This document shows, in pieces, positions 4,947 to 49,173 of a stretch of DNA of 64,000 nt. Position 1 is the stretch's first letter, and every line of letters begins with the position of its first letter. Source of the stretch: Frigoriglobus tundricola. GTDB lineage: Bacteria; Planctomycetota; Planctomycetia; Gemmatales; Gemmataceae. The stretch covers positions 1,426,001-1,490,000 of the forward strand of contig NZ_CP053452.2 in NCBI RefSeq assembly GCF_013128195.2, read 5' to 3'. Position numbers and translations under genes: made by a program. The notes below the pieces were generated by a model. The model made no database searches. It saw nothing but the letters and a program-made list of their open reading frames with translations, and was not told where the DNA came from.

Positions 4947-5050
4947 GACGGAGTTCTCCCTCGGGAAAACTCACAGACTACCGTACACACCCGGCCAAAG
5001 ACGGTCGGTGAGCGACAGCCGGGATCGGCGGGGTTCGGTGTGGGATGGGC

Positions 5051-6600
5051 TTACGCGACGAGGAGTCGGGATTGTTGACGCTTCGCCCACACGTCGGGCA
5101 GAAGAGGTGCGAGTTGGTCCGCCGTCGGCTTCTCGCCCAACGCATGAAGGGCCGGAAGAACCTCACGCAGGTATGCCGTCGCATCGAGACCCAAGTGCCG
5201 ACACGTGCCCACCACCGAGAAGTGAACCGCGGCGTGCGCACCGGCCTTCGCACTGCCCACGAACTTCCAATTGCTCCGACCCACGGCGATCAGCCGGAGC
5301 GTTCGCTCGCTCAGGTTATTATCGATCGAGAGTCGCCCGTCCTCGGTGTACCGGACGAACGCGGCCCAGTGATTCGCCACGTACCGGATCGCGGCCCCCA
5401 GGGCCGACTTGGGCAACGCCGTCCCGAGTGCCGCGTCGAGCCACGCCTTCAGGTCGTTCAGGATCGGGAGCGCCCTTGCTTGCCGCGTCGCGCGACGGGC
5501 GACGATGTGCTCCGGTGAGTCCGGCGCCGGAAGCGTGTGCTCGATGTGGTACAACCGGTTGATGCGTTCGACCGCCTTGGCCCCGGGGTCCCCGGCGCCG
5601 AGGAACTTGCGGCGCGCGTGGGACCAACAGGCGACGTGCTTGGCTCCGGCGGCGAACAGGCCGTTGTACTGTGCGAGGCAATCGGCATGCACGTGGCCCC
5701 GGAAGCCGCCTAAGAACTGGTCCGGTCCGCTCGCGGCGTCGTAACCGGTCGTGAAGTGGAACGCCGTGTACGGGGCCGTCGGATCTCCGATCCCCACCCA
5801 GAAGTGGCCGTGCGGCATCGTTCGCTCACCGGGCTGGGCGAACCGCGAGCGGGTGTCATCGGACCAGAGGACCGGACACGTGCACCCGCTCGAGCATCAA
5901 CTGGTACAGCGACGTCAGTAACACCGCGGACTGTTTCACCCAATCGCCCAAGGTACTCTCGGACACCGTCACCCCCGCGCCCGATCCGGGCGACTTGGCG
6001 GTGCAGCGGCAGGTGGTCGAGGAACTTCCCGACGAGAACCTCGGCCAACAAGCCCGGACCACACAGTCCCTTGTCGATCGGTCCGACGGTACTCGGCGTG
6101 GCGGTCCGATCCGGTCCTCGGCCCGGACCGTCGGGGGCACTGTTGGCACGCGTACGTCTTGCGGATCGTGCGCCGCACGAAGTACGGGGTCGGGTCGCAA
6201 TCGAGTTGCTCGGTCTGGGTCTGGCCGATGCACACGCGGTCGCCACCACAGCCCGAGCAGCGGCGCTCGTCGGGGTCAGATCGAGGACCGTGTCGCGGCG
6301 TTCGAGGTGCGCCGGGAGTGGCGAACGGCCGTGGTCGTGGCGCCGCTTCGCGGGTCCGTCGCCGGGGACCTTCGGTGGCTTCGGTGTGCGTTCGGACCGC
6401 CGGCCGAACCGGTGCGTCGTGGCCCGGTCCAACTTCGCCTTCAAGGCCGCGACCTCGGCACGCAGGTCGTCGATGGTCCGTTGGAACTGCTCGGCCTGGC
6501 GTTGGAGCTGCGTGCGGAGGTCGGCGTTTTCGGCCTGGAGGGCACGCACCATCCCTTGGAGGGTCAGCACGTCGGTCGGCAGCGGGGCGTCGGAGTCCAT
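5051..6600 (-). pseudogene. tnpC: IS66 transposase TnpC, frameshifted
   Basis: The N-terminal part starts at 6600 (MDSDAPLPTDVLTLQ, with a coiled coil at residues 20-60) and stays in frame to about 6285. The zinc region with GQTQTEQLDCDPTPYFVRR continues in another frame (6235 to about 6130). The helix with GPGLLAEVLVGKFLDHLPLH returns to the first frame, and SESTLGDWVKQSAVLL is in a third. The C-terminal catalytic part (VHADCLAQYNG, DNNLSERTLRL) reads cleanly from 5818 to the stop at 5051. At least three frame changes are needed, so the gene is dead unless they are sequencing errors in G/C-rich runs. Confidence 0.85.
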
Positions 6601-6613
6601 GCCGAAAGATGGG

Positions 6614-6991
6614 TCAGGACGTGCGGGTGCGCAAGTCGGATTCGGACGCTTTCGGGCGACAATAACGGGTGAAACGTTTGGCCGACGAGTAGTCGATGCC
6701 GTCGAGGATCATGGCGAACTCGGTGGCGGTGAGTTCGAGTTTGCGGTCGGTCGGGGTGGGGAAGTGGTACCGCCCGCGCTCGAGTCGCTGGCACCACAAG
6801 CAGAGCCCGTGGCGGGTCCAGTACAGGGCCTTGAGCCGGTTGGCCGAGCGATTGGTGAAAATGAACAGATGCCCGCTCAAGGGATCGGCCTGAAGCGTGG
6901 ATTGGACGTGGCGGTACAGGCCGTCGAACCCGAGGCGCAGATCGACGGCCCCGCCGTACCAGAGCTGGGTGGTGGGTGGAATGCTCAGCAC
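6614..6991 (-). CDS. tnpB: IS66 accessory protein TnpB
   Basis: A 125-residue protein with the family core GFDGLYRHVQSTLQADPLSG followed by HLFIFTNRSANRLKALYW and a CLWCQRLERGRY strand. The start is taken as GTG at 6991 (VLSIPPTTQLW), which overlaps the tnpA stop at 6985 in the usual coupled arrangement. It appears intact although the transposase beside it is broken. Confidence 0.85.
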   Translation of the reverse strand: MLSIPPTTQLWYGGAVDLRLGFDGLYRHVQSTLQADPLSGHLFIFTNRSANRLKALYWTRHGLCLWCQRLERGRYHFPTPTDRKLELTATEFAMILDGIDYSSAKRFTRYCRPKASESDLRTRTS

Positions 6992-7332
6992 GGGCGCCCC
7001 TCCACCGCATGCACGAGGGCGGCGATGACCTCCGGTCGGGCATCGACCGGGAACCGCAGGACGGTTCCCGACGGGAACACCACCTCGATCGGCGGTCCGG
7101 CGGGCGACGGGGTCAGGCGGATGGGGACGAGCGTCGGAGTGACCGGTACGGGTGATGGGGCGTGGTCCGCGAGGGTTCGCCGCCACACATAAAAGGACGG
7201 CGGTGAGACGCCCTCGGCGGCACAGAACTGAGCGATCGTCTGCCCCGACCGGCGGAACCGTTCGAGTCGTTCGGCCCACCGGCGACGGGTGGCGGCCGGG
7301 TCACGGCGAGAGGCAGCAGGGACAGCAGGCAC
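6985..7332 (-). CDS. tnpA: IS66 accessory protein TnpA
   Basis: A 115-residue protein. The helix-turn-helix (RFRRSGQTIAQFCAAEGVSP then PSFYVWRR) is at about 24-52, with a C-terminal beta part ending VVFPSGTVLRFPVDARPE. It is the first gene of the second IS66 element. The Pro/Ala/Arg-rich first 20 residues are weakly supported, and a start further in is possible. Confidence 0.82.
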   Translation of the reverse strand: MPAVPAASRRDPAATRRRWAERLERFRRSGQTIAQFCAAEGVSPPSFYVWRRTLADHAPSPVPVTPTLVPIRLTPSPAGPPIEVVFPSGTVLRFPVDARPEVIAALVHAVEGRPC

Positions 7333-7451
7333 AGCGGCATCCTCCAGGGAAAACGGATGCCATCGAACTTACCTTACCTGTCAATGACGCCGTTCGCCGG
7401 TCGTGTACAGACTACCCGATGATGCAAGGCGTCAATTTACCGGACACGTAC

Positions 7452-7500
7452 GGAACAAACAACCGATGTGCAGCGGCCCGGTGCCGCGACCGGTTCGGCG
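7452..7500 (-). repeat. attC-like site 1 (right half only)
   Basis: Only the VTS-side half and the GTTCGGC box (7493-7499) remain. The other half is replaced by sequence leading to the IS66 element, so this marks the truncated end of the array. Confidence 0.75.
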
Positions 7501-8084: not shown

Positions 8085-8178
8085 GCGGAACGATCAAGCC
8101 CCCCGGCCCGGCCGCGTCCGAAGGAGCCGTGCAAAACATACCACGTGGCCGGGGCCGGTGCCGCGCCGGGGTTCGGCG
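8085..8178 (-). repeat. attC-like site 2
   Basis: Ends GCGGAAC (8085) and GTTCGGC (to 8177), with inner arms CCCGGCCCGGCC and GGCCGGGGCCGGTG. It lies 35 bp upstream of the zinc-ribbon gene start. No gene is recognisable on its other side (8179-8455), so the cassette it belonged to has probably decayed. Confidence 0.75.
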
Positions 8179-8978: not shown

Positions 8979-9068
8979 GCCTAACGGTCAAGCTCGCCGG
9001 CCGCGCACGCCGCGAGCGGTGGAACAAACAATCTATGTGCCGCGGTCCGGTGCAGCGACCGGTTCGGC
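8979..9068 (-). repeat. attC-like site 3 (canonical GCCTAAC box)
   Basis: The distal box reads GCCTAAC (8979-8985), an exact fit to the attC consensus RYYYAAC. It is paired with GTTCGGC (9062-9068). Inner arms are CGCCGGCCGCGCAC and GTGCCGCGGTCCGGTG. Short subtype. The following 9069-9325 holds no recognisable gene and may be a dead cassette. Confidence 0.85.
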
Positions 9069-11212: not shown

Positions 11213-11329
11213 GCCGAACGAATCCGCTCGCCGGCCGCGCACGCCGCGACCCCAGTACCGCACACGGACGCGCGATGAGCAACGAGACACAAATCACGTG
11301 GCCGGGTCCGGTGCGGCGGCGGGTTCGGC
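11213..11329 (-). repeat. attC-like site 4
   Basis: Long subtype. Boxes GCCGAAC (11213-11219) and GTTCGGC (11323-11329); gene-proximal arm GGCCGGGTCCGGTG. It overlaps the last 36 bp of the phosphatase-like gene. Confidence 0.85.
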
Positions 11330-11848
11330 CGGCCGTTGCTTGGACGGGAGGGTGTGGGCGAACCAATCCGTCACCCACGCCCGCTGTGCCGGGGTATCCG
11401 GAACCGACTGGCCCCGCGCCCGCTGAACCGCCACCCAAGCCGACTCGACCGGCACCCCAAGGGCGGCCAGTACGCACACCGCCAGCGCGGCCGAACGGCC
11501 CACACCGATGCGGCAGTGAATCCCAACCCCGCGACCGGCCCTCAACTCGGCAACCAGCACGGTCACCAGCTCCGAAACGGCCGCGGGTGACGCCGGAACG
11601 CCTCGATCCGGGACCGGGAAGCGGGCGAACGTGAGGCCCGCACGCGAGCAGCACTCTGGTTCCGCGCCCAACCCCAACTCGGCAACCTCGTCATCGTCGA
11701 GCAACGATACCACGATATTGAGGGTCTGCTTCCGCCACGACGCGGCCTCGTCACCCAGCCAGTCGCCCGCGCGGGGGCGCGGCATGATCGCGAGGCGACC
11801 CGTTGGGCACTCGGCGATCGGAACAGTTCTGCTCGCACCGCTGTGCAC
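11294..11848 (-). CDS. Dual-specificity/tyrosine-phosphatase-like protein (cassette)
   Basis: A 184-residue protein with the PTP loop HCRIGVGRS near residue 109-117 (Cys and Arg of Cx5R present). Upstream is GRLAIMPRPRAGDWL, a start typical of small bacterial PTP-like proteins, with NIVVSLLDDDEVAELGL as the following strand-helix. It should hydrolyse phosphotyrosine or a related phosphate ester in the cytoplasm. GTG 11848 is used because the GRLAI segment is conserved and lies upstream of the first ATG. The C-terminal tail (AEPAAAPDPAT) is encoded by attC-like site 4, not by the phosphatase domain. Confidence 0.82.
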   Translation of the reverse strand: MHSGASRTVPIAECPTGRLAIMPRPRAGDWLGDEAASWRKQTLNIVVSLLDDDEVAELGLGAEPECCSRAGLTFARFPVPDRGVPASPAAVSELVTVLVAELRAGRGVGIHCRIGVGRSAALAVCVLAALGVPVESAWVAVQRARGQSVPDTPAQRAWVTDWFAHTLPSKQRPAEPAAAPDPAT

Positions 11849-11856
11849 CCCTTGTG

Positions 11857-11970
11857 GCCGAAACGATCTCGCTCACCGGCCCGGCCGCGACTCCAGTACG
11901 CGACAACGGCGATCGATGAGCAACGAGAGGCGAACTCCACGGTCGGGGCCGGTGCGGCGTAAGGTTCGGC
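11857..11970 (-). repeat. attC-like site 5
   Basis: Long subtype. Boxes GCCGAAAC (11857) and GTTCGGC (11964-11970); arm CTCACCGGCCCGGCCGCGA. It lies between the end of 11977-12426 and the phosphatase gene start. Confidence 0.8.
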
Positions 11971-11976
11971 CCGGCC

Positions 11977-12426
11977 TCACGGGTTGTTCCAGAACTCGGC
12001 GACCTCGGCGACCGCCTCGCCGCCGAAACGGAGGTTAACGTAGTGGTACCCGCGCTGCCACGGCTTGCGGAACCGCTCCCACTGGTCGGACACGGCGTCG
12101 GTCCGCGCCTCAAACCCCTCCGCTCTCAGCGCCGCGGTCGCGTCGGCCCGCGTCGTGCCCCTGGACACCCCGGTCGGCTTGCTGTCGCGCGTGAACCACA
12201 TCTCGGGCGGGTTGAAGCGGATCGACTTCCACTGCACCGGGGCGGCCGGGGCGGGGGGTGGGACGGCCGCGACCGGAACCGGGTCCGCGTGCGCGGCGGG
12301 TGGGACGACGGCTGCCGCCTGAACCGGGTGCGCTGGCGCTACGGGCCGGCGACCGGCGACGTACCCGGTCGCGCCCCCCACGAGGAGGCCGACCGCAAGC
12401 ATCAGCAATGAAGACCGGCTCGTCAT
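11977..12426 (-). CDS. Signal-anchored small periplasmic protein (cassette)
   Basis: A 149-residue protein with an N-terminal membrane anchor or signal (LLMLAVGLLVGGATGYVAG, residues 7-25) and an Ala/Pro/Val-rich linker to about 65. The compact C-terminal domain (SIRFNPPEMWFTRDSKPTGV to LRFGGEAVAEVAEFW) has a GxTRAD helix followed by a strand pair, and faintly recalls the BamE/SmpA fold. Function unknown. ATG 12426 begins 18 bp after site 6 on the coding strand. Confidence 0.75.
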   Translation of the reverse strand: MTSRSSLLMLAVGLLVGGATGYVAGRRPVAPAHPVQAAAVVPPAAHADPVPVAAVPPPAPAAPVQWKSIRFNPPEMWFTRDSKPTGVSRGTTRADATAALRAEGFEARTDAVSDQWERFRKPWQRGYHYVNLRFGGEAVAEVAEFWNNP

Positions 12427-12443: not shown

Positions 12444-12525
12444 ACCGAACGAAAAAAACTCACCGGTCGCGCGCCCCGCGAGCGGTGCTGGAACCAACGC
12501 ATGTGCAGCGGCCGGTGCAGCGCGC
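12444..12525 (-). repeat. attC-like site 6
   Basis: Short subtype, box ACCGAAC (12444-12450) and arm CTCACCGGTCGCGCG. The gene-side GTTCGGC box has been lost, and the palindrome ends near the pentapeptide gene stop. Confidence 0.7.
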
Positions 12526-12531
12526 CCATTG

Positions 12532-13074
12532 CTACCCGCCGGGCGGCTCTGGCCCCTCGTCCGGCGACAACGCCATGACCGCCTGTTGCTCCCGGCTGAG
12601 AGAGTCGTGGACGCACCCGTCGGAGTCCCCGGCCTCGGCCACCGCTCCCAACAAGTCGGCCCCGGTGAAGTCGCAGCCCTCGAACGACGACCTGCGGAGG
12701 TCCGCGCCTCGCAGTAACGCCCCGGCGAACTTGCACCCCCGGAAGTGCGACGCCCGCATGTCGCACCCGGACAGATCGGCCCCGCTGAAGTCGCACGCGT
12801 CGAAGTCGTTCCAGCACATGCACGACTCGGACAGGTCGGTGCCGGCGAAGGTGGTGCCCACCAGCCATGACCGGCTGAACAAGGTGCGGGGCATGGTCAG
12901 GTGGCTACGGTCGGCGCCCTCCAGACCGGATCGGAAGTAGCTGAACCCGAGCGGTTCCTCGTCGTGGACGCTGGGCACCCGGTCCCGGATGAACGGGCGA
13001 CCGTCGGGATGGCGGGGTACATCCGCGTGCTGCGACTCCAGGAACAGCCAGGTGCCTTCCAGCGACTTCCGCAT
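12532..13074 (-). CDS. Pentapeptide-repeat protein (cassette)
   Basis: A 180-residue protein with A(D/N)LXX-type pentapeptides from about residue 60 to 145 (for example FSGADLSGCDMRASHFRGC and FAGALLRGADLRRSSFEGCD). They predict a right-handed quadrilateral beta-helix. The N-terminal 50 residues are not repetitive. Pentapeptide proteins include DNA-gyrase mimics that protect against quinolones, but many have no known role. Nothing here shows a gyrase link. The length suits a gene cassette. Confidence 0.85.
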   Translation of the reverse strand: MRKSLEGTWLFLESQHADVPRHPDGRPFIRDRVPSVHDEEPLGFSYFRSGLEGADRSHLTMPRTLFSRSWLVGTTFAGTDLSESCMCWNDFDACDFSGADLSGCDMRASHFRGCKFAGALLRGADLRRSSFEGCDFTGADLLGAVAEAGDSDGCVHDSLSREQQAVMALSPDEGPEPPGG

Positions 13075-15380: not shown

Positions 15381-15471
15381 GGTCGAATAAATAACCTCAC
15401 CGGCGCCGCACCCGGCGCTCGGTGCTCGAAGCACCCAATGTACCGCGGTTTGGTGACGCGGCGGGATCGGC
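15381..15471 (-). repeat. attC-like site 8, degenerate
   Basis: GGTCGAA at 15381 and GGATCGGC at about 15464, with the arm CCTCACCGGCGCCGCAC and the usual short-subtype centre (CACCCAATGTACCGCGG). The boxes are mutated. Confidence 0.55.
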
Positions 15472-15841: not shown

Positions 15842-15930
15842 GCCGAACCAAAACCCTCGCCGGCCGCGCACGCCGCGACACGGTTAGGAAACAAGCTATG
15901 TGCAGCGGTCCGGTGCGGCGGGTGGGGCGG
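15842..15930 (-). repeat. attC-like site 9
   Basis: Short subtype. Box GCCGAAC (15842-15848), arm CTCGCCGGCCGCGCAC and the centre AAACAAGCTATGTGCAGCGG. The gene-side box is degenerate (GTGGGGC, 15922). Confidence 0.75.
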
Positions 15931-15944
15931 CCGGTACGACGAGC

Positions 15945-16427: not shown

Positions 16428-16503
16428 GCCGAACGAAAAAACTCACCGGCCGCGCACCCCGCGGCTCGTCCGGAAACAGCGCCGGTGCAGCAGCGGGTTC
16501 GGG
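16428..16503 (-). repeat. attC-like site 10
   Basis: Box GCCGAAC (16428-16434) preceded by CCTGTG, and GTTCGGG (16497-16503). Arm CTCACCGGCCGCGCAC; the centre is shortened. Confidence 0.75.
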
Positions 16504-17242: not shown

Positions 17243-17368
17243 GCCGAACGGTCCCGCTCCCCGGCCCGGCCGCGGCTCCCGTAACTCGCACGGACGACCT
17301 GCGAGCAACGAGAAATAAGCTGCTACGCGGCCGGGGCCGGTGCGGGGCCGGTGCGGCGGGCCTTCGCG
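17243..17368 (-). repeat. attC-like site 11
   Basis: Long subtype. Box GCCGAAC (17243-17249), arm CCCCGGCCCGGCCGCGG, and a doubled GGGGCCGGTGC on the gene side. The gene-side box is CTTCGCG, mutated. Confidence 0.7.
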
Positions 17369-17378
17369 GTCCGGGCGC

Positions 17379-17957
17379 TCACCGCCGCGCCACGTCATAG
17401 TAGTGGTTGTCGCCCTCGTCCGTGTACTCCGCAACCGGCACCAGCCCCGCCTCCCGGCAGATCACGCGGTACGTTGCCGACCCGAGGGACACGGACGGGA
17501 GCCCGGTCAGCAGGTCGTCCCACGTGCAGACCTGTTCGGGAGCGGTGAACAGAAACCGGCCGCCCGGCTCCAGCGCCGCTGCCACGTTGCGGATGACGGC
17601 CCGCTGCGCCTCGGCCGGGAGCAAGAACAGGAGCCCCCATGCGACGGCTCCGGCGAACGTGTGCGCGAAGAGGGCGGACCGCTCGGCCGGTTCGCAGACC
17701 ACCCGCGCGTGTGGGAAGTTGGCGCGGAAGGCGGCCGCCATCGAGGGGGACGCATCGACCCCGTAGACCGACAAGCCGGCCGCGACCAGCGCCCGTGAGA
17801 CCGGCTCCCCGTCGCCACATCCGACGTCGAGGACGGACGCACCCGGCGGCAGCGCGCCGGCCCACGCGCGGACGGTTTCCAGCCCGACATTGGACCTGCG
17901 ACGGGTCGCCAGGTACTCTGCCGAGGCGCGGTCGTACCCGTTCGAGGAATCTGCCAT
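17379..17957 (-). CDS. Class I SAM-dependent methyltransferase (cassette)
   Basis: A 192-residue Rossmann-fold methyltransferase. Motif I VLDVGCGDGEP is at about 42-52, the acidic residue of motif II follows in VYGVDAS (about 65-71), and LEPGGRFLFTAP marks the post-III strand. Substrate unknown; the small size and lack of a target domain suggest a small molecule. ATG 17957 (MADSSNGYDRASAEYLATRR) is the natural family start. The upstream extension of the frame crosses site 12 and was rejected. Confidence 0.88.
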   Translation of the reverse strand: MADSSNGYDRASAEYLATRRRSNVGLETVRAWAGALPPGASVLDVGCGDGEPVSRALVAAGLSVYGVDASPSMAAAFRANFPHARVVCEPAERSALFAHTFAGAVAWGLLFLLPAEAQRAVIRNVAAALEPGGRFLFTAPEQVCTWDDLLTGLPSVSLGSATYRVICREAGLVPVAEYTDEGDNHYYDVARR

Positions 17958-18321: not shown

Positions 18322-18412
18322 GCCGAACGAACACGGTCACCAGCCGCGCACGCCGCGGCCCGGTCACCCGGCAACGCATCTAACCGCGACCCGGTGCCGC
18401 GCCCGGTTCGGC
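18322..18412 (-). repeat. attC-like site 13
   Basis: Boxes GCCGAAC (18322-18328) and GTTCGGC (18406-18412), with arms GTCACCAGCCGCGCAC and GCGACCCGGTGCCG. Confidence 0.8.
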
Positions 18413-18664: not shown

Positions 18665-19217
18665 CTGATCCGCCCTTCTGTGGCCGAAAGAAACAGCTCA
18701 CCGGCCGCCCACCGCGAGCGGTGCTCCCAACAACCGATGTGCGGCGGTCCGGTGCAGGGGCGGGTTCGGCCGCTTGTGCTTCCCGACCGGCGAGCAGTTC
18801 GACCTTCGCAACGTCTTTGAGCCGGACGATGTCCCCCTCGGCACTGGCTTTCAAAATACAGTTCTCGTACTGATCCGGCCGGAGGTGCGCGTTGAACACG
18901 ACCCCTGGGGGCGGGACGGGTTCCTTCGGATCGACTATGCCGCTTGGCGTCAACGCTCTCATCACGTCTTCTTTGGACAGGCCATAGGCACGCAAACGTT
19001 CGGGATCGAGCCGAACTCGGACCGCGTCGCCGCGATCCCACGGGCGCCGAACTTGGAACGTGATCTCGGACCGTGCAACGCCTCCCGGCCCCTCAACCCT
19101 TCCCGCTGGGAGGGCGTTGGCGGTTGTTTCTCTTTTTGTCGCATCAGGTTTGCCACCACATCCGATGGAAGAACTGAGCAACCCGATGACCGCCAAAAGT
19201 TTCGCTAACCTTTTCAT
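18594..19217 (-). CDS. Lipoprotein with an RND-porter-like fragment (cassette, runs through its attC-like site)
   Basis: A 207-residue frame. The signal is lipoprotein-like (MKRLAKLLAVIGLLSSSIGC, lipid-anchored Cys at about 20). The next 120 residues contain RLDPERLRAYGLSKEDVMRA and ILKASAEGDIVRLKDVAKVE, which resemble the porter/docking segments of RND efflux pumps (the RLKDVA-x-VELG motif). This looks like a fragment of a pump domain placed behind a lipoprotein signal. The frame has no stop before site 14, passes through it, and ends at 18594 inside the next gene. The natural end was probably near 18770. Confidence 0.65.
   Translation of the reverse strand: MKRLAKLLAVIGLLSSSIGCGGKPDATKRETTANALPAGRVEGPGGVARSEITFQVRRPWDRGDAVRVRLDPERLRAYGLSKEDVMRALTPSGIVDPKEPVPPPGVVFNAHLRPDQYENCILKASAEGDIVRLKDVAKVELLAGREAQAAEPAPAPDRRTSVVGSTARGGRPVSCFFRPQKGGSDGTPGRGVGDRRVPLRLTPGRSD
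18683..18770 (-). repeat. attC-like site 14
   Basis: Short subtype. Boxes GCCGAAAG (18683-18690) and GTTCGGC (18764-18770), arms CTCACCGGCCGCCCAC and GTGCGGCGGTCCGGTG. It is inside the reading frame of 18594-19217. Confidence 0.82.
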
Positions 19218-19274: not shown

Positions 19275-19385
19275 GCCGAACGTAAAAGCTCACCGGCCCG
19301 GCCGGGATCGCAACCAGCCTATACGAGGCGCGGTGAGCAACGGGACAAATCACACGACCGGGTCCGGTGCAGCGCGGGGTTCGGC
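19275..19385 (-). repeat. attC-like site 15
   Basis: Long subtype. Boxes GCCGAAC (19275-19281) and GTTCGGC (19379-19385), arms CTCACCGGCCCGGCC and GACCGGGTCCGGTG. It overlaps the 3' end of 19350-19730 by 36 bp. Confidence 0.87.
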
Positions 19386-19758: not shown

Positions 19759-19871
19759 GCCGAACGTACAAGCTCACCGGCCCGGCCGCGACTCCAGTGT
19801 GCGGCAACCGGAACCGGTGAGCAACGGGAAACAGACTCAGTGGCCGGATCCGGTGCAGCGCCAGGTTCGAC
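19759..19871 (-). repeat. attC-like site 16 (type example)
   Basis: Boxes GCCGAAC (19759-19765) and GTTCGAC (19865-19871). Inner arms CACCGGCCCGGCC (13 nt) and GGCCGGATCCGGTG (14 nt) pair fully except for one extra base on the gene-proximal arm. Unpaired spacers of about 9 nt lie between boxes and arms. Confidence 0.88.
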
Positions 19872-20172: not shown

Positions 20173-20285
20173 GCCGAACGATGAAACTCACCCGCCCGGC
20201 CACGATCCCAGTGTGCGGCAACCGGAACCGGTGAGCAATGGGAAACAAACTACGCGGCCGGGTCCGGTGCTGCAGCGGGTTCGGC
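20173..20285 (-). repeat. attC-like site 17
   Basis: Long subtype. Boxes GCCGAAC (20173-20179) and GTTCGGC (20279-20285); gene-side arm GGCCGGGTCCGGTG. The centre is almost identical to site 16. It overlaps the end of 20250-20723 by 36 bp. Confidence 0.87.
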
Positions 20286-20739: not shown

Positions 20740-20830
20740 GCCGGACGTAAAAAGCTCACCGGCCGCGCACGCCGCGATCGGTCCTACAAACAAGCTATGT
20801 GCGGCGGTCCGGTGCCGCGTGGGGTTCGGC
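20740..20830 (-). repeat. attC-like site 18
   Basis: Short subtype. Boxes GCCGGAC (20740-20746) and GTTCGGC (20824-20830), arms CTCACCGGCCGCGCAC and GTGCGGCGGTCCGGTG. It overlaps the end of 20795-21367 by 36 bp. Confidence 0.87.
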
Positions 20831-21367
20831 GGGGTCTTGCATTGATTGCCCCTCCGCGGAACCTTTCTTGCCCTGCTCGATGAGAGCGGCCGCGAACGGG
20901 TCGGCCGGCGGCAGCCAATCACAGCCCGGCCCGAAGGCATCGGCGATCAGCGCCCCGATGCGCCGGTAGTCCTGCTCAGCCGCGCCCATGTCCCCCCGGT
21001 GGCGAGCCACACCGGCAACGTTGTTGAGCGTGCCGACGAGCCCCATGAACACATGCACGAACAACTCCCCCCGCACGGCTGATTGCTCGTGGAGGCACCG
21101 CTCATAGATGCCGAGGGCTCGCCGCCACAGGGCTTCGGCTTCGGGGCCCCTCCACCCGGGCTCACCAACAGTACTGGCGAGACGGACGAGGCTGTTAGCA
21201 ACATTGTGGTGGTCCGGCCCGAGCACTCGCTCGCGGATGGCCAGGGCACGGCGGTAGTACGACACGGCGTCGGATCGCCGGTCGTGGCAGCGACACTCGA
21301 CAGCAAGGTGGTCGAATGCCGCTGCCGCCTGGAAGTCAAGGGGCGTGCTTTCCCCGTCAGACATCAT
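20795..21367 (-). CDS. TPR-repeat protein (cassette)
   Basis: A 190-residue protein with tetratricopeptide motifs, best seen in AVSYYRRALAIRERVLGPDH, ALWRRALGIYERCLHEQS and AAEQDYRRIGALIADAFGPG. It is a likely cytoplasmic protein-binding scaffold. The tail AEPHAAPDRRT is encoded by site 18. The start is MMSDGEST; either of the two adjacent ATGs (21367 or 21364) can serve. The frame extends upstream only into site 19. Confidence 0.78.
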   Translation of the reverse strand: MMSDGESTPLDFQAAAAFDHLAVECRCHDRRSDAVSYYRRALAIRERVLGPDHHNVANSLVRLASTVGEPGWRGPEAEALWRRALGIYERCLHEQSAVRGELFVHVFMGLVGTLNNVAGVARHRGDMGAAEQDYRRIGALIADAFGPGCDWLPPADPFAAALIEQGKKGSAEGQSMQDPAEPHAAPDRRT

Positions 21368-21381
21368 AGCGCCCCGCTTGA

Positions 21382-21471
21382 GCCGAACGAACTCGCGCAC
21401 CGGTCGCGCGCGTCGCGAGCGGTGTTGCAAACCACGCATGTGCGGCGGTCCGGTGCCGCGTGGGGTTCGGC
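21382..21471 (-). repeat. attC-like site 19
   Basis: Short subtype. Boxes GCCGAAC (21382-21388) and GTTCGGC (21465-21471), arms GCACCGGTCGCGCGC and GTGCGGCGGTCCGGTG. Followed by 76 bp without a gene. Confidence 0.87.
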
Positions 21472-22569: not shown

Positions 22570-23793
22570 CTATTTGGTCGCCTTCGCGGGGACGAGGGCG
22601 TCGGCGAACGCCTTGCCGATCGGTGCCATGATCTTGGCCGCGCCGAGGTAGTGGTACCCCCCGTTGGAGACCCCCGCCTTCAGGCGCTTCTGCTCCTCGG
22701 GCGTGAACTGCTCCGCGACGGCCGCCCGGCGCGCCTCCTCTTTGGCCGCCGGTTTCAGGCCCGGGTCCTTCTTGAACTCCCGGTCGAGCTGGGCTTCGAG
22801 CTTCTCCCACCGCTGTTGGAGCGCGTCCAGATCGTCGTCCCAAAACGGTGCCGTCTCCACCGCGACCACGTTGCCCTTGAACTCGGGCCGCGCCGCCGGC
22901 GCGGCCTGGGCCCGGCGGAAATACATCTGGGGCGCCTTCTGCCCCTCCGCCGCGCCCCCGATCCCCATGACGCCGATCACGACGGGCAGCTTCGGGGCCG
23001 ACAGGTCCTTGCGGACGTCGCGGACGAGGTGCGCCAGGAGGTCCGCGTACGGGTCGTACCCGCCGGGCTTCATCCGGTCGTGGTACGTCCAGTCGTCGAC
23101 CAGGTCGTTGAACCCCTGGAACCACACGAACCCGGCCAGTTCGTACCCCTGCTTGTCGTCGTAGTCCGGCACCACCCGTTTGATGTCCTTGAGCACCTTC
23201 CGGACGTGGTCGATCATGTGGCGGTAAAACACCCCGCCGTTCTTGTGAATCTTCGCCGCCTCCTTTTCGACGTCGAGGCCCTGCTTCTTCCACTGGTCGA
23301 TGATGAAGTCGTTGAACGGCTCCGGCCCGGCGCCGGGGGGCCGGAAGTCCGTGTGGAGGCTCCGGCCGCCCCAGGCGGTCTTGATGATCAGCACGGGCCC
23401 GCCCAGCCGCTGCTCCGTGTAAATGCCGAACGTGAACTCCGGACCGATCTTCTCGGCCGAGGCGCCGAAGCCGGCCGTCAGTTTCCCTTTCTGCTCGATG
23501 ACATCGGACCAGCCGTCTCCGGCGCAGCCGACCGACGAGATCCAGACCCGCTCACAGGTCCGGGGCTTGCCGTCGGGGCCGCGCATCTCCTTGAGGAGCG
23601 GCGCCGTCTTCGGGTCGTCGGCCAGCGAACCGAACGTCGAGACGCGCGCGTGCCCCTGCATGTTCGACTGCCCGGCCAGGATGAACACCTTTAAGGGCTT
23701 GTCGGCCGCCGGCGCGCCGCTCGCGGTCACGAGCAGCGCGAGGGCACAGGCGCCGAGTGTCGGCGCGGGAAACTGTCCGTGTCGCGGACCCAT
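22570..23793 (-). CDS. Secreted SASA-domain carbohydrate esterase (sialate O-acetylesterase-like)
   Basis: A 407-residue protein with a signal peptide (ALALLVTASGAPAA, cleavage near 29). The block KVFILAGQSNMQGHA (about 34-48) carries the catalytic Ser of the GQSNM motif. IIKTAWGGRSL and GFVWFQGFNDL are the following SASA/CE6 blocks. The C-terminal part has a charged helix and ends KAFADALVPAKATK; the YHYLGAAK segment near the end probably contributes the catalytic His. It should remove acetyl groups from polysaccharides outside the cytoplasm. It is larger than a typical cassette but is framed by sites 21 and 22. Confidence 0.88.
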   Translation of the reverse strand: MGPRHGQFPAPTLGACALALLVTASGAPAADKPLKVFILAGQSNMQGHARVSTFGSLADDPKTAPLLKEMRGPDGKPRTCERVWISSVGCAGDGWSDVIEQKGKLTAGFGASAEKIGPEFTFGIYTEQRLGGPVLIIKTAWGGRSLHTDFRPPGAGPEPFNDFIIDQWKKQGLDVEKEAAKIHKNGGVFYRHMIDHVRKVLKDIKRVVPDYDDKQGYELAGFVWFQGFNDLVDDWTYHDRMKPGGYDPYADLLAHLVRDVRKDLSAPKLPVVIGVMGIGGAAEGQKAPQMYFRRAQAAPAARPEFKGNVVAVETAPFWDDDLDALQQRWEKLEAQLDREFKKDPGLKPAAKEEARRAAVAEQFTPEEQKRLKAGVSNGGYHYLGAAKIMAPIGKAFADALVPAKATK

Positions 23794-23855: not shown

Positions 23856-23940
23856 GCCGAACGGTCCGGCCGGCCGCGCACGCCGCGATCGGTGCCGCGA
23901 ACCACGCACGTGCAGCGGTCCGGTGCCGCGTGGGTTCGGC
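23856..23940 (-). repeat. attC-like site 22
   Basis: Short subtype. Boxes GCCGAAC (23856-23862) and GTTCGGC (23934-23940), arms GGCCGGCCGCGCAC and GTGCAGCGGTCCGGTG. The next 100 bp (23941-24044) carry scraps of the long subtype, suggesting a second, broken site. Confidence 0.85.
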
Positions 23941-24044: not shown

Positions 24045-24416
24045 TCAGTCGAAGAAGGCGACCTCCCGCACGCGGCCGGTGTCGGGGTCGAAGCGGACCC
24101 ACAACCGCTCCCGCCACCCGAGCGGATCGAGCACGCTCCCGCGGACGAGTTCGTACTTCAGAAGGTGGCCGGGCGACTCCTGGTCCCCCGGGCCGAGCAG
24201 GGCCACGACCTCGGCCCAGGTCCGGTTGACCAGCACCCGGCTCCGGTTCAGGTCGCCGACCATCCGCATCCGCTGGCGGGGTCCGCCGGCCGGCCACCGC
24301 TCGGCCTGGAACGGGCGATCCGAGTAAAACAGGCACTCCGCGATAACGCCGACGATGGGACCGCCCACCACCAGTGCGAGCACGGCCACGCAGGCGGCGT
24401 ATCTCGCCCGACCCAT
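24045..24416 (-). CDS. BamE/SmpA-like membrane-anchored protein (cassette)
   Basis: A 123-residue protein with an N-terminal membrane segment (AACVAVLALVVGGPIVGVIA, about 7-26). The small domain contains NRTWAEVVALLGPGDQESPG, a Tyr-rich strand LKYELVRG, and WVRFDPDTGRVREVAFFD at the end. This helix-LLG-strand-strand layout is that of BamE-like domains, here without a lipobox. In the family such domains attach to outer-membrane or envelope complexes. The role here is unknown. Confidence 0.7.
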   Translation of the reverse strand: MGRARYAACVAVLALVVGGPIVGVIAECLFYSDRPFQAERWPAGGPRQRMRMVGDLNRSRVLVNRTWAEVVALLGPGDQESPGHLLKYELVRGSVLDPLGWRERLWVRFDPDTGRVREVAFFD

Positions 24417-24437
24417 CGTGCCCCTTCCACCTCCGTG

Positions 24438-24549
24438 GCCGAACGTGAAAGCTCACCGGCCCGGCCGCGCGACCCGTGTGCGGCAGACGCGCCCGGTGAG
24501 CCACAACAACAAGTCAGACGGCCGGGTCCGGTGTAGCGCCGGGTCCGGC
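24438..24549 (-). repeat. attC-like site 23
   Basis: Long subtype. Box GCCGAAC (24438-24444) and GTCCGGC (24543-24549), arms CTCACCGGCCCGGCC and GGCCGGGTCCGGTG. Confidence 0.85.
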
Positions 24550-24941: not shown

Positions 24942-25034
24942 GCCGAACAAAGCCGCTCACCGGCCCGGCCACGACTACAGTGTGCGGCAGAAGGGGCCGG
25001 CGAGCAACACGAAACAAGTCACATGGCCGGGTCC
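24942..25034 (-). repeat. attC-like site 24, gene side truncated
   Basis: Long subtype. Box GCCGAAC (24942-24948), arm CTCACCGGCCCGGCCACGA and the arm ACATGGCCGGGTCC, after which the repeat stops at about 25034. It is the last minus-oriented site. Confidence 0.75.
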
Positions 25035-25042
25035 ACTCGTGA

Positions 25043-25244
25043 GCGACCGGGAGGGGTCGGCAATTGGGCCACAGGACCATGTAAATTGCGTCGGGTACCT
25101 CCTCGGCGTCTACAGCGTTCGCCGACTCCACCCCGCTGAAGCCGGTGACCCCGTCGCTGACTTCCTGGAGCAGCGCAAGCACTTGTGGCTATTCGAGTCG
25201 ATTCCGGAGTCGGTGGTCCCATCGAAGAGTCCGATTCTGATGTC
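25043..25244 (-). pseudogene. Remnant of a small gene (cassette), function unknown
   Basis: Two protein-like fragments lie in different minus frames: FDIRIGLFDGTTDSGIDSNS (from about 25244) and then LALLQEVSDGVTGFSGVESA with NAVDAEEVPDAIYMVLWPNC. Together they would make the C-terminal two thirds of a protein of about 90 residues, broken by one frameshift. No start codon or family is clear. Confidence 0.35.
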
Positions 25245-25657: not shown

Positions 25658-25760
25658 GCAGCGAATCCGCCCCGGCCCCGGCCGCGTTTTCCCGTTGCTT
25701 GCGGCTCACCCGTATGCGTTACTGGTGTCGCGGCCGGGCCGGTGCCCGGGACCGTTCGGC
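25658..25760 (+). repeat. attC-like site 25 (inverted orientation)
   Basis: Next-gene box GTTCGGC (25754-25760) followed by CACAGAG, the reverse of the CTGTG seen beside minus sites. Arm GGCCGGGCCGGTGC; the other end is GCGAATCC, mutated. Confidence 0.75.
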
Positions 25761-25776
25761 CACAGAGGGCGCGCGG

Positions 25777-26093
25777 ATGGCGAATCGCTCCGGCAGGCAG
25801 AATCGCAAGGCGGCCCTCGCCGTATGGAAGGCCGAGCAACGGGCCGCCGCGCGGGCCAAGTTCCCGCTCCCCGCGGCGGCACGGTCGGCCCTGTTCGATG
25901 ACTCGACACGGGGCTGCCCCGCCGCGGCTGCGACCACACGCTCCGGCTGGTGAGGGCGTGGTGCGCCGCGTCCGGGCTCGAGTTCGCGCCCGTGGAGGCA
26001 TGGCTGCTCGACACCGGCGGGGGCTGCGACTGTGAGGCCCTCGCCGGTGCGGAGCCGGCGTTTCGGGAGGCGTGTGGCGAGCCCGGCGGGTGA
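25777..26093 (+). pseudogene. DUF2695-like protein, frameshifted (cassette)
   Basis: ATG 25777 starts MANRSGRQNRKAALAVWKAE, a basic N-terminal helix. After LPAAARSALFD the frame changes by one base near 25900. In the new frame LPRRGCDHTLRLVRAWCAAS and FAPVEAWLLDTGGGCDCEAL run to the TGA at 26091. The CDH and GGxCDCE elements are those of DUF2695, a small cysteine/histidine-rich family of unknown function. Restored length is about 105 residues. It is the first plus-strand cassette, 16 bp after site 25. Confidence 0.75.
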
Positions 26094-26127: not shown

Positions 26128-26239
26128 GCCGAATCCCGCGCTGCACCGGCCCAGACCGCGTAACTTGTTTCCCGTTGCTCCCCGGCGCGTCTGCGGCACA
26201 CTGGGGTCGTGGCCGGGCCGGTGAGTGGATTCGTTCGGC
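26128..26239 (+). repeat. attC-like site 26 (inverted orientation)
   Basis: Long subtype. GCCGAAT (26128-26134) on the gene side and GTTCGGC (26233-26239) on the far side. The extra arm base is again on the gene-proximal arm (CACCGGCCCAGACC, 14 nt, against 13 nt), so the asymmetry has turned with the gene. Confidence 0.85.
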
Positions 26240-26264: not shown

Positions 26265-26579
26265 GTGTATTGCCCCCACTGCGGCCGGACGCTCGTCGAG
26301 TCGGGCGGCAAGTTCTTCTGCTATCCCGGCCAGGCGTGCTTCGCCGGCGGTGTCGCTGCGGCGCTCCGGGAGCGCTTCCCGGCCCCGCGACCGGCTGCCC
26401 CGGAGTTCGAGGTCGGGTGCCGGCCGGACGAATGGTGGTGCCCCGGCTGCGGAGTGCCGCTCGGTGAGGGCTCGGCCTGCTCGGTCTGCGGGGGCACGAT
26501 CGCGGACCTGCGTGTGCGCTTGGTGGAGTTGGCCCCGCACCGCGACGAGAACGGCTCGTGGGCGTGGGGCCACTCCTGA
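26265..26579 (+). CDS. Zinc-ribbon protein (cassette)
   Basis: A 104-residue protein with a GTG start at 26265 and a strong Shine-Dalgarno (GGAGGAAGC, about 26250) just upstream. It carries CPHC (about 3-6), a lone C in FFCYPGQACF, then CPGC and CSVC (about 65-81), so one or two zinc ribbons. The end GTIADLRVRLVELAPHRDEN is a helix. The first part (YCPHCGRTLVESGGKFFCYP) resembles ribbons of nucleic-acid-binding proteins. Role unknown. Its start is 26 bp after site 26. Confidence 0.75.
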   Translation: MYCPHCGRTLVESGGKFFCYPGQACFAGGVAAALRERFPAPRPAAPEFEVGCRPDEWWCPGCGVPLGEGSACSVCGGTIADLRVRLVELAPHRDENGSWAWGHS

Positions 26580-26710: not shown

Positions 26711-26800
26711 GCCGAACCCGCCACTGCACCGGACGGCTGCACGTGCGTGGTTTGCGGCACCGATCGCGGCGTGCGCGACCGGTGCGCGGGATCGCTCGGC
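26711..26800 (+). repeat. attC-like site 27 (inverted orientation)
   Basis: Short subtype. GCCGAAC (26711-26717) and GCTCGGC (26794-26800), arms CTGCACCGGACGGCTGCAC and GTGCGCGACCGGTGC. The 131 bp before it (26580-26710) hold no gene and may be a dead cassette. Confidence 0.8.
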
Positions 26801-48267: not shown

Positions 48268-49173
48268 TCACGAGCGCGGGTGGGCCTTCTGATAGCTCTT
48301 TTGCAGCCGCTGCGTACTCACGTGTGTGTAAACCTGGGTCGTCGCCAAACTCTTGTGGCCGAGGAGTTCTTGCACCCCGCGGATGTCGGCCCCGGCGTCG
48401 AGCATGTGGGTCGCGAAACTGTGCCGCAGCGTGTGCGGACTGGTCCGGGGGTCGAGGCCCGCGGCCTTCAGGTGCTTCGCGAGCAGCCGGCCGACGCTGC
48501 GCGTGGTCAGCCGCCCGCCCTTGTTGTTGAGGAACACCGCCGGCGTGTCCTTCCCGGCCGCCTTCAGGAGCACGGCCCGGTCGTCGAGCCACACCCGAAT
48601 CGCTCGCACCGCGTCCGGCCCCAGCAGGGCCAAGCGTTCCTTCTTTCCCTTCCCGCGAACCGTAATCACCCCATCGTTCAGATCGACGGAGAGCAGATCC
48701 AGACCAACCAGCTCGGATACGCGAATTCCGGCCGAGTAGAGCGTCTCCAACATGGCGCGATCGCGCCGCCCGGCCCAATCCGCGCCCGGGGGCGCGGCCA
48801 GCAGTTTGTGAACATCCGCGAGGGTCAGGAAGTGGGGGAGCCGCTTGTCCTGGCGCGGGCCGCGCAGCCCCTGGGCCGGGTTCGCCGCGAGCACCCCGCC
48901 CCGGCACAGGAACTTGCCGAACGAGCGGACCGCGGCGAGGCGGCGGGCGATGGTCGTCTTCGCGTACTTCTGCTCGTGGAGCCACGCCACGAACGCGCGG
49001 AGCAGCCGGGTGGTCCAGTCGGCCGGATCGACGTGCGATTTCTTGAGCCGGTCGCGCGCGAAGACGAGGGCCTGCGTGAGGTCTTCGCGGTACGACTTCA
49101 CCGTCTTTTCGGAGGCGTTTTTTTCAAGGCCGAGGTGGGTGAGGAACTCGGCCAGCCCCTGTTCCATCGTCAC
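48268..49173 (-). CDS. Tyrosine recombinase, XerC/XerD type
   Basis: A 301-residue recombinase. The N-terminal SAM-like domain (EFLTHLGLEKNASEKTVKSY) is followed by the catalytic domain with R in SAGIRVSELVGLD, K in VRGKGKKERLALLG, H-x-x-R in TSPHTLRHSFATHM, and H and Y in LLGHKSLATTQVYTHV. It is the usual length and lacks the added segment of integron integrases, so it is read as the chromosome-dimer-resolving Xer enzyme and not IntI. GTG 49173 or ATG 49167 may start it. Confidence 0.93.
   Translation of the reverse strand: MTMEQGLAEFLTHLGLEKNASEKTVKSYREDLTQALVFARDRLKKSHVDPADWTTRLLRAFVAWLHEQKYAKTTIARRLAAVRSFGKFLCRGGVLAANPAQGLRGPRQDKRLPHFLTLADVHKLLAAPPGADWAGRRDRAMLETLYSAGIRVSELVGLDLLSVDLNDGVITVRGKGKKERLALLGPDAVRAIRVWLDDRAVLLKAAGKDTPAVFLNNKGGRLTTRSVGRLLAKHLKAAGLDPRTSPHTLRHSFATHMLDAGADIRGVQELLGHKSLATTQVYTHVSTQRLQKSYQKAHPRS

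Follow-up and report, generated by a model that had tools for sequence, protein, structure and literature searches.

Integrons are systems that capture and shuffle genes, and an integron is usually described as an integrase with a single attI and a single array beside it. In the described attC sites the extrahelical bases sit on the R''-L'' arm (PMC2727003). IntI1 is reported to be efficient in excising both T-N6-G and T-N6-C cassettes, IntI3 chiefly those with T-N6-C, and the contact residues Q145, W157, K209, Y210 and W219 of VchIntIA correspond to K156, R168, K219, Y220 and W229 of IntI1 (PMC3053210). A cluster of attC sites without an integrase is called CALIN in the usage of IntegronFinder and is reported to hold almost 6 sites on average (PMC9024848). 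Integrons and attC sites are also known from planctomycetes (PMC2426708, PMC8618304, PMC8352920), and planctomycete attC sites have already been used for a taxon model (PMC8352920).

We analyzed a stretch of 64,000 nucleotides from Frigoriglobus tundricola, here called the window, whose repeats an earlier note had read as attC sites. This reading was borne out and we are highly confident that these repeats represent attC sites from an integron of a planctomycete, as the same genome encodes an intact IntI, about 20 like repeats surround its gene and the model built from them finds the window copies, genes end at R'' and start at R', and identical cassettes bounded by R boxes are present in a relative. 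The fold, the side and spacing of the extra bases, the gene order, the family shared with the intI array and the cassette boundaries can all be read from the sequence.

Integrase, repeat family and the array of the window

The 9.86-Mb genome holds one intact intI above the cut-off, located at 6.705 Mb, 5.2 Mb from the window. IntI reaches 449.7 bits with TIGR02249 (curated cut-off 265) and aligns over its full length to VchIntIA 2A3V (E 5.9e-90), and the gene, which lies outside the window, includes the integron-specific domain. The repeats around intI, of both subtypes, number about 20, at least 17 of them downstream and three on the other side. A covariance model (R1), preceded by a strict regular expression and built solely from 20 sites around intI, detected 117 sites genome-wide at E <= 0.01. 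These form arrays at about 1.41-1.45 (window), 2.45-2.47, 6.69-6.71 (intI), 6.74-6.76, 8.37-8.38 and 8.61 Mb as well as smaller groups. As a point against the attC reading, 3 of 59 genomes have IntI but no R1 sites and 15 have R1 sites but no IntI. A 36-aa fragment of an IntI C-terminus (72% identical) lies near decayed sites at 6.758 Mb (L031:16792-16899) and is probably part of a second, broken integron. The tyrosine recombinase encoded in the window at 48268-49167 (299 aa) was rejected as the integrase, being XerC/D-like and below the IntI cut-off.

Using R1 with a cut-off of E < 1e-4 we obtained 22 predicted sites in the window, given here with two cassette genes:

7380-7499, strand -: decayed attC, E 5e-5
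8085-8177, strand -: attC, E 1.6e-9
8979-9068, strand -: attC, short subtype, E 5.4e-20
11213-11329, strand -: attC, E 6.9e-12
11857-11970, strand -: attC, E 1.2e-10; the gene 11977-12402 ends 6 nt off
12448-12533, strand -: attC, E 1.8e-9
15382-15471, strand -: decayed attC, E 1.9e-7
15842-15931, strand -: attC, short subtype, E 2.9e-14
16428-16503, strand -: shortened attC, E 6.6e-10
17243-17357, strand -: decayed attC, E 4.3e-5; from the window search only, absent from the whole-genome list
18322-18412, strand -: decayed attC, E 2.2e-7
18683-18770, strand -: attC, short subtype, E 1.7e-16
19275-19385, strand -: attC, long subtype, E 4.1e-16; fold z -2.24
19759-19871, strand -: attC, long subtype; its parts are given below
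20173-20285, strand -: attC, long subtype, E 1.6e-13
20740-20830, strand -: attC, short subtype, top model score in the window, E 1.4e-20
21382-21471, strand -: attC, short subtype, E 4.6e-20
23856-23940, strand -: attC, E 1e-11
24045-24416, strand -: cassette gene; its cassette has an 80% identical relative at 9.694 Mb
24438-24549, strand -: attC, long subtype, E 9.4e-13
24942-25061, strand -: decayed attC, final member of the '-' run, E 4.3e-5
26128-26239, strand +: inverted attC, gene on '+', bulges on the R'' side, E 3.1e-12
26265-26579, strand +: cassette gene of the inverted part, from the gene calls
26711-26800, strand +: inverted attC, gene on '+', bulges on the R'' side, E 8.4e-16

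Another decayed, inverted site-like stretch (25667-25783) is located where the array changes orientation. Family matches of the array genes 11294-11785, 12532-13074, 17379-17957, 20795-21400 and 22570-23793 are phosphatase-like, pentapeptide, methyltransferase, TPR and SASA esterase. Elsewhere in the window, 2.4 kb at 4983-7409 are 99.7% identical to L031:2599-5032 (6.74 Mb) and are perhaps a recent insertion element, and tandem 126-nt repeats at 1738-2667 likely belong to a repeat protein. Neither an Rfam match nor a tRNA (ARAGORN) was found in the window.

Genes were called by a self-trained codon model, the calls being mechanical and uncurated, and a gene was scored when it was within 400 nt of a site. 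Gene calls cover the surroundings of 105 sites, where genes end at the R'' side in 79 of 80 scorable cases and start at the R' side in 72 of 77 (median 25 nt), showing that the sites follow the gene and turn with it. For the 21 window sites both values are 17 of 17 scorable, with both inverted sites included. Nineteen genes overlap their site by an identical 36 nt. In this genome and seven relatives sites are located downstream of the intI 3' end with the cassettes on the intI strand; this genome and G028 have additional sites on the opposite side of intI, and G021 departs from the common layout, as both of its scored sites are upstream of IntI and on opposite strands.

The window array qualifies as a CALIN, which takes two or more attC sites lacking an integrase in the vicinity. 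It is best described as a cluster of predicted attC sites that has partly decayed and has neither an integrase close by nor an attI that could be recognised. Of the 21 window sites 6 have two perfect R boxes, and the corresponding values are 17/21 at 2.46 Mb, 3/5 at 8.61 Mb, 0/7 at 6.74-6.76 Mb and 8/22 elsewhere. At 8.37 Mb the array is headed by an attI and yet has 3/9 perfect sites, so that an attI at the head is no guarantee of good sites. The whole window array (8/32) has fewer perfect R boxes than the intI array (17/21), so that it probably is of greater age or has ceased to be maintained. This also speaks for the idea that the sites are attC by descent and their array in the window is dead, a relic on which IntI has ceased to act, as does the fact that a model of the five attI copies described below found no attI for this array (1.412-1.453 Mb) and that the covariance model gave weak sites at both of its ends. 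We give this idea slightly less than an even chance, since the six sites mentioned have kept both R boxes, the site at 19275-19385 folds well and the cassette at 24047-24461 has a relative at another locus, adjoining the attC at 9.694 Mb, though just 80% identical. Some sites of the array look still usable, and we infer that IntI acts on these attC sites and that those of the window may still work.

Fold and asymmetry of the sites

For the copy at 19759-19871, the coordinates and letters given in the earlier note proved correct when the sequence was read again. Its parts are:

19759-19871, top strand '-', recombining bottom strand '+': predicted attC, long subtype (R1 65.3 bits, E 2.6e-14; bottom-strand fold)
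19759-19765, strand -: R' box GTTCGGC, from the sequence; all five attI copies have the same GTTCGGC as their core
19775-19787: inner arm CACCGGCCCGGCC, from the sequence
19842-19855: inner arm GGCCGGATCCGGTG, from the sequence
19849, strand +: extrahelical T of the bottom strand, adjoining the C-A mismatch 19781/19848
19856, strand +: second extrahelical base, C, separated from T19849 by six nt
19865-19871, strand -: R'' box with one mismatch (GTTCGAC on '+'), from the sequence

In the DNA fold of the bottom strand ('+') the R boxes are paired, the spacer is unpaired and the extra bases remain unpaired in a long stem, a fold that was not obtained for the top strand. The unpaired spacer between boxes and arms, as claimed before, is present in both the sequence alignment and the fold. 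The statement that the arms of this copy are all paired but for one extra base was wrong: C19781 is opposite A19848 next to T19849, resulting in a 1x2 internal loop, and C19856 is a second extra base, unpaired between CCGGTG and AGC, with AGC pairing with GCT. Against shuffles the fold z-scores of this copy are -1.14 (bottom) and -0.07 (top), and the best of the four window sites folded is 19275-19385, which forms a clean single T bulge. As these values are modest and single-sequence folds are slightly better than shuffles, fold energy alone is no proof.

To count extra bases, both arms of the 117 model-found sites were aligned symmetrically with equal windows on either side. The R''-side arm is richer in extra bases in 109 of the 117 sites (5 ties, 3 reversed), which have a common ancestry and so are not 117 independent tests of the side, and whose strand was assigned by a covariance model with training sites carrying the bulge on the R'' side. 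In the window this holds for 19 of 21 sites with 2 ties and none reversed. The side is therefore non-random in the aligned arms, random variation being the outcome that had been named as refuting. With two checks agreeing that do without the strand given by the model, genes ending at the R'' side and a model-free scan showing one-arm bulges in relatives, the proposal of extra bases on the gene-proximal arm stands, also for the inverted copy at 26128-26239, where the bulges are on the R'' side, the gene is on '+' and the T is displaced inward. For the well-kept copies, which had been said to share a single extra base, the side was right and the number was not, as they have two extrahelical bases and most short-subtype copies a third one on the R''-side arm. 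Well-kept sites read T-N6-C on the bottom strand; the exact form is found in 5/21 window sites vs 17/21 in the intI array, indicating that the window copies have decayed.

A stronger test of the predicted asymmetry than the count of 117 sites is the model-free scan across genomes, which used R boxes and arm pairing as its only criteria. It revealed T-N6-C in 105 of 162 sites from 12 genomes scanned, with such sites in 9 of them. The six-base stem between T and C covaries, with 12 distinct stems, a few of them from other site types; pair 3 occurs as G-C and C-G and pair 5 as four pair types. The remaining sites show other patterns, one base or no clear pattern, with T-N6-G in one site each of G011 and G021. 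By eye, the inner attC of the identical G014 cassette described below reads A-N6-G. It is very improbable that the repeats are terminators or REP-like palindromes with an accidental asymmetry: they do sit after genes and form GC-rich hairpins, but we saw by eye no T run belonging to the unit, several genomes show the same combination of pairing R boxes, spacers and two to three extra bases on one side, with covarying stems, and the family surrounds IntI and bounds identical moving units.

In this reading the bottom strand of each site forms a hairpin, in which the R boxes pair with each other, an unpaired spacer comes next and the stem pushes out two or three bases on the arm adjoining the gene upstream. 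The single strand so folded would be the substrate of IntI, the pushed-out bases would set strand and direction, and a cut between the G and TTCGGC of the box would let the gene and the following site move as one cassette.

attI copies and cassette movement

The intI stop is followed by a 130-nt element with GTTCGGC at its end, an attI next to intI. Arrays at 2.458, 3.346, 8.036 and 8.373 Mb are headed by four more attI copies, equally long, the similarity ending at GTTCGGC, and a model of the five copies finds those five only in the genome (E < 1e-29; next match E 0.06). A tblastn search upstream of the four distant attI, over at least 4 kb each, found no IntI. At the 3.346-Mb attI a few codons matching the intI end are located just past the stop of an unrelated gene, which suggests that intI was lost and attI left behind. 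The attI beside intI includes a perfect palindrome with 27-nt arms (L021:19901-19955), whose hairpin, by eye, seems to be kept at 2.458 and 8.036 Mb with changes on both sides. Five of 40 relatives have an attI match at E <= 0.001. In G014, G011, G009 and G016, several of which are draft contigs, attI copies are present without an adjoining intact IntI, and two of these copies are preceded by an IntI remnant of 38-39 aa.

Movement of cassettes can be followed with a cassette of about 419 nt, of which this genome has at least 7 copies in the intI array and at least 5 in the 2.46-Mb array. In 50 copy pairs the similarity starts exactly at the R' end in 26, at <=3 nt in 35 and at <=19 nt in all 50. 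The best pair across the two arrays is 96% identical, although the attI elements of these arrays reach just 82%. The copies are at L021:15932-18608 and L023:10122-13768, those in L021 being without a gene over the score limit. That the repeats are MITEs, the inverted-repeat ends of a small transposable element spread by a transposase, is hardly credible, as the 117 alike copies in one genome that would fit are tandem with genes between them, keep mostly to a single orientation within an array and follow gene direction, and breakpoints are at GTTCGGC, matching the end of the attI element.

In the relative G014 a 332-nt unit reaching from GTTCGGC to GTTCGGC is present at four places with 332/332 identical positions and unrelated flanks. 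Three copies are in the intI array and one is directly at an IntI-less attI 1.9 Mb away; the 75-nt start of the unit is also found at intI's own attI, ahead of a run of N. No other finding points as clearly to the R box as the cut site and to a recently moved cassette at an integrase-less attI. It is no proof of action in trans, as the distant attI may have lost its intI after the insertion, or the copy may have come there by homologous exchange.

The five attI copies, four of them heading integrase-less arrays, together with the identical G014 cassettes suggest that one integrase acts on dispersed attI in trans. We consider it reasonably probable that this is a dispersed integron, in which one integrase would serve several attI-headed arrays over the chromosome, attI and array would outlast the local loss of intI and receive cassettes in trans, and a T-N6-C / GTTCGGC code would be used lineage-wide. 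If IntI acts on all arrays, integrase-less attC clusters would not simply be dead relics, and the class 1 recognition rules could be tested against a natural and consistent alternative.

Recognition code and comparison with known systems

The R box GTTCGGC fits GTTRRRY at 6 of 7 positions with position 4 being off, and inverted R''/R' boxes with the invariant GTT cleavage triplet are present except in decayed copies. The control set consists of the best 80 of 588 IntI loci in named genomes, less four labelled planctomycete. From the resulting 76 loci, 15 gave T-N6/7 sites (38 sites) and the other 61 none. The second base is G in 35/38 and C in 3/38 of these sites, and R-box position 4 is a purine in 36/38. 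Both exceptions at position 4, from loci labelled Gallionella and Polycyclovorans, read GTTCGGC, so the GTTRRRY consensus is not strict. All 38 control sites (15 loci) are upstream of intI and divergent. The planctomycete set, six loci from five genomes picked for holding sites, has T-N6-C in 69 of 70 sites and T-N6-T in one, with a pyrimidine at position 4 in 70/70, and its difference from the control is one between lineages, not between 108 independent sites.

In our own reading of the alignment to VchIntIA, the first two contact positions are K and R in this IntI, as in IntI1, and K, Y and W are kept, as are the P, H and H holding the T. By eye, GTTCGGC in a TAA-rich attI-like context follows intI in 9 of 18 relative IntI loci and a variant box in 2, and no such box was seen after intI in the other 7, three of them at contig ends. 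No GTTCGGC array was found at the relative IntI loci G040, G045 and G056. The locus L076 of G035 has a second IntI with an in-frame stop, followed by an attI-like box of the canonical form, GTTAGGC.

Two features seem to be new: a GTTCGGC / T-N6-C code that is consistent, and attI-headed arrays that are dispersed. In the open-access literature searched, we recognised no report of this code or of dispersed attI arrays. By its description, the planctomycete set of PMC8352920 is of the same phylum and site type. Like a CALIN, the window has 22 sites and no IntI nearby; unlike the almost 6 sites given as the average (PMC9024848), 32 are listed for the whole window array, and the genome also has attI-headed IntI-less arrays. 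With class 1 attC sites and the VCR of V. cholerae, as far as described in the sources cited here, the sites share the R''-L''-L'-R' order, the unpaired spacer, the bottom-strand hairpin and the position after a gene, as well as an R''-L'' arm with two or three extrahelical bases, among them a T and a second base six nt apart. They differ from both in the second base, which in most sites is C and not G (69/70 in the six planctomycete loci vs 3/38 in the controls), and in the R box, which is GTTCGGC and not GTTRRRY.
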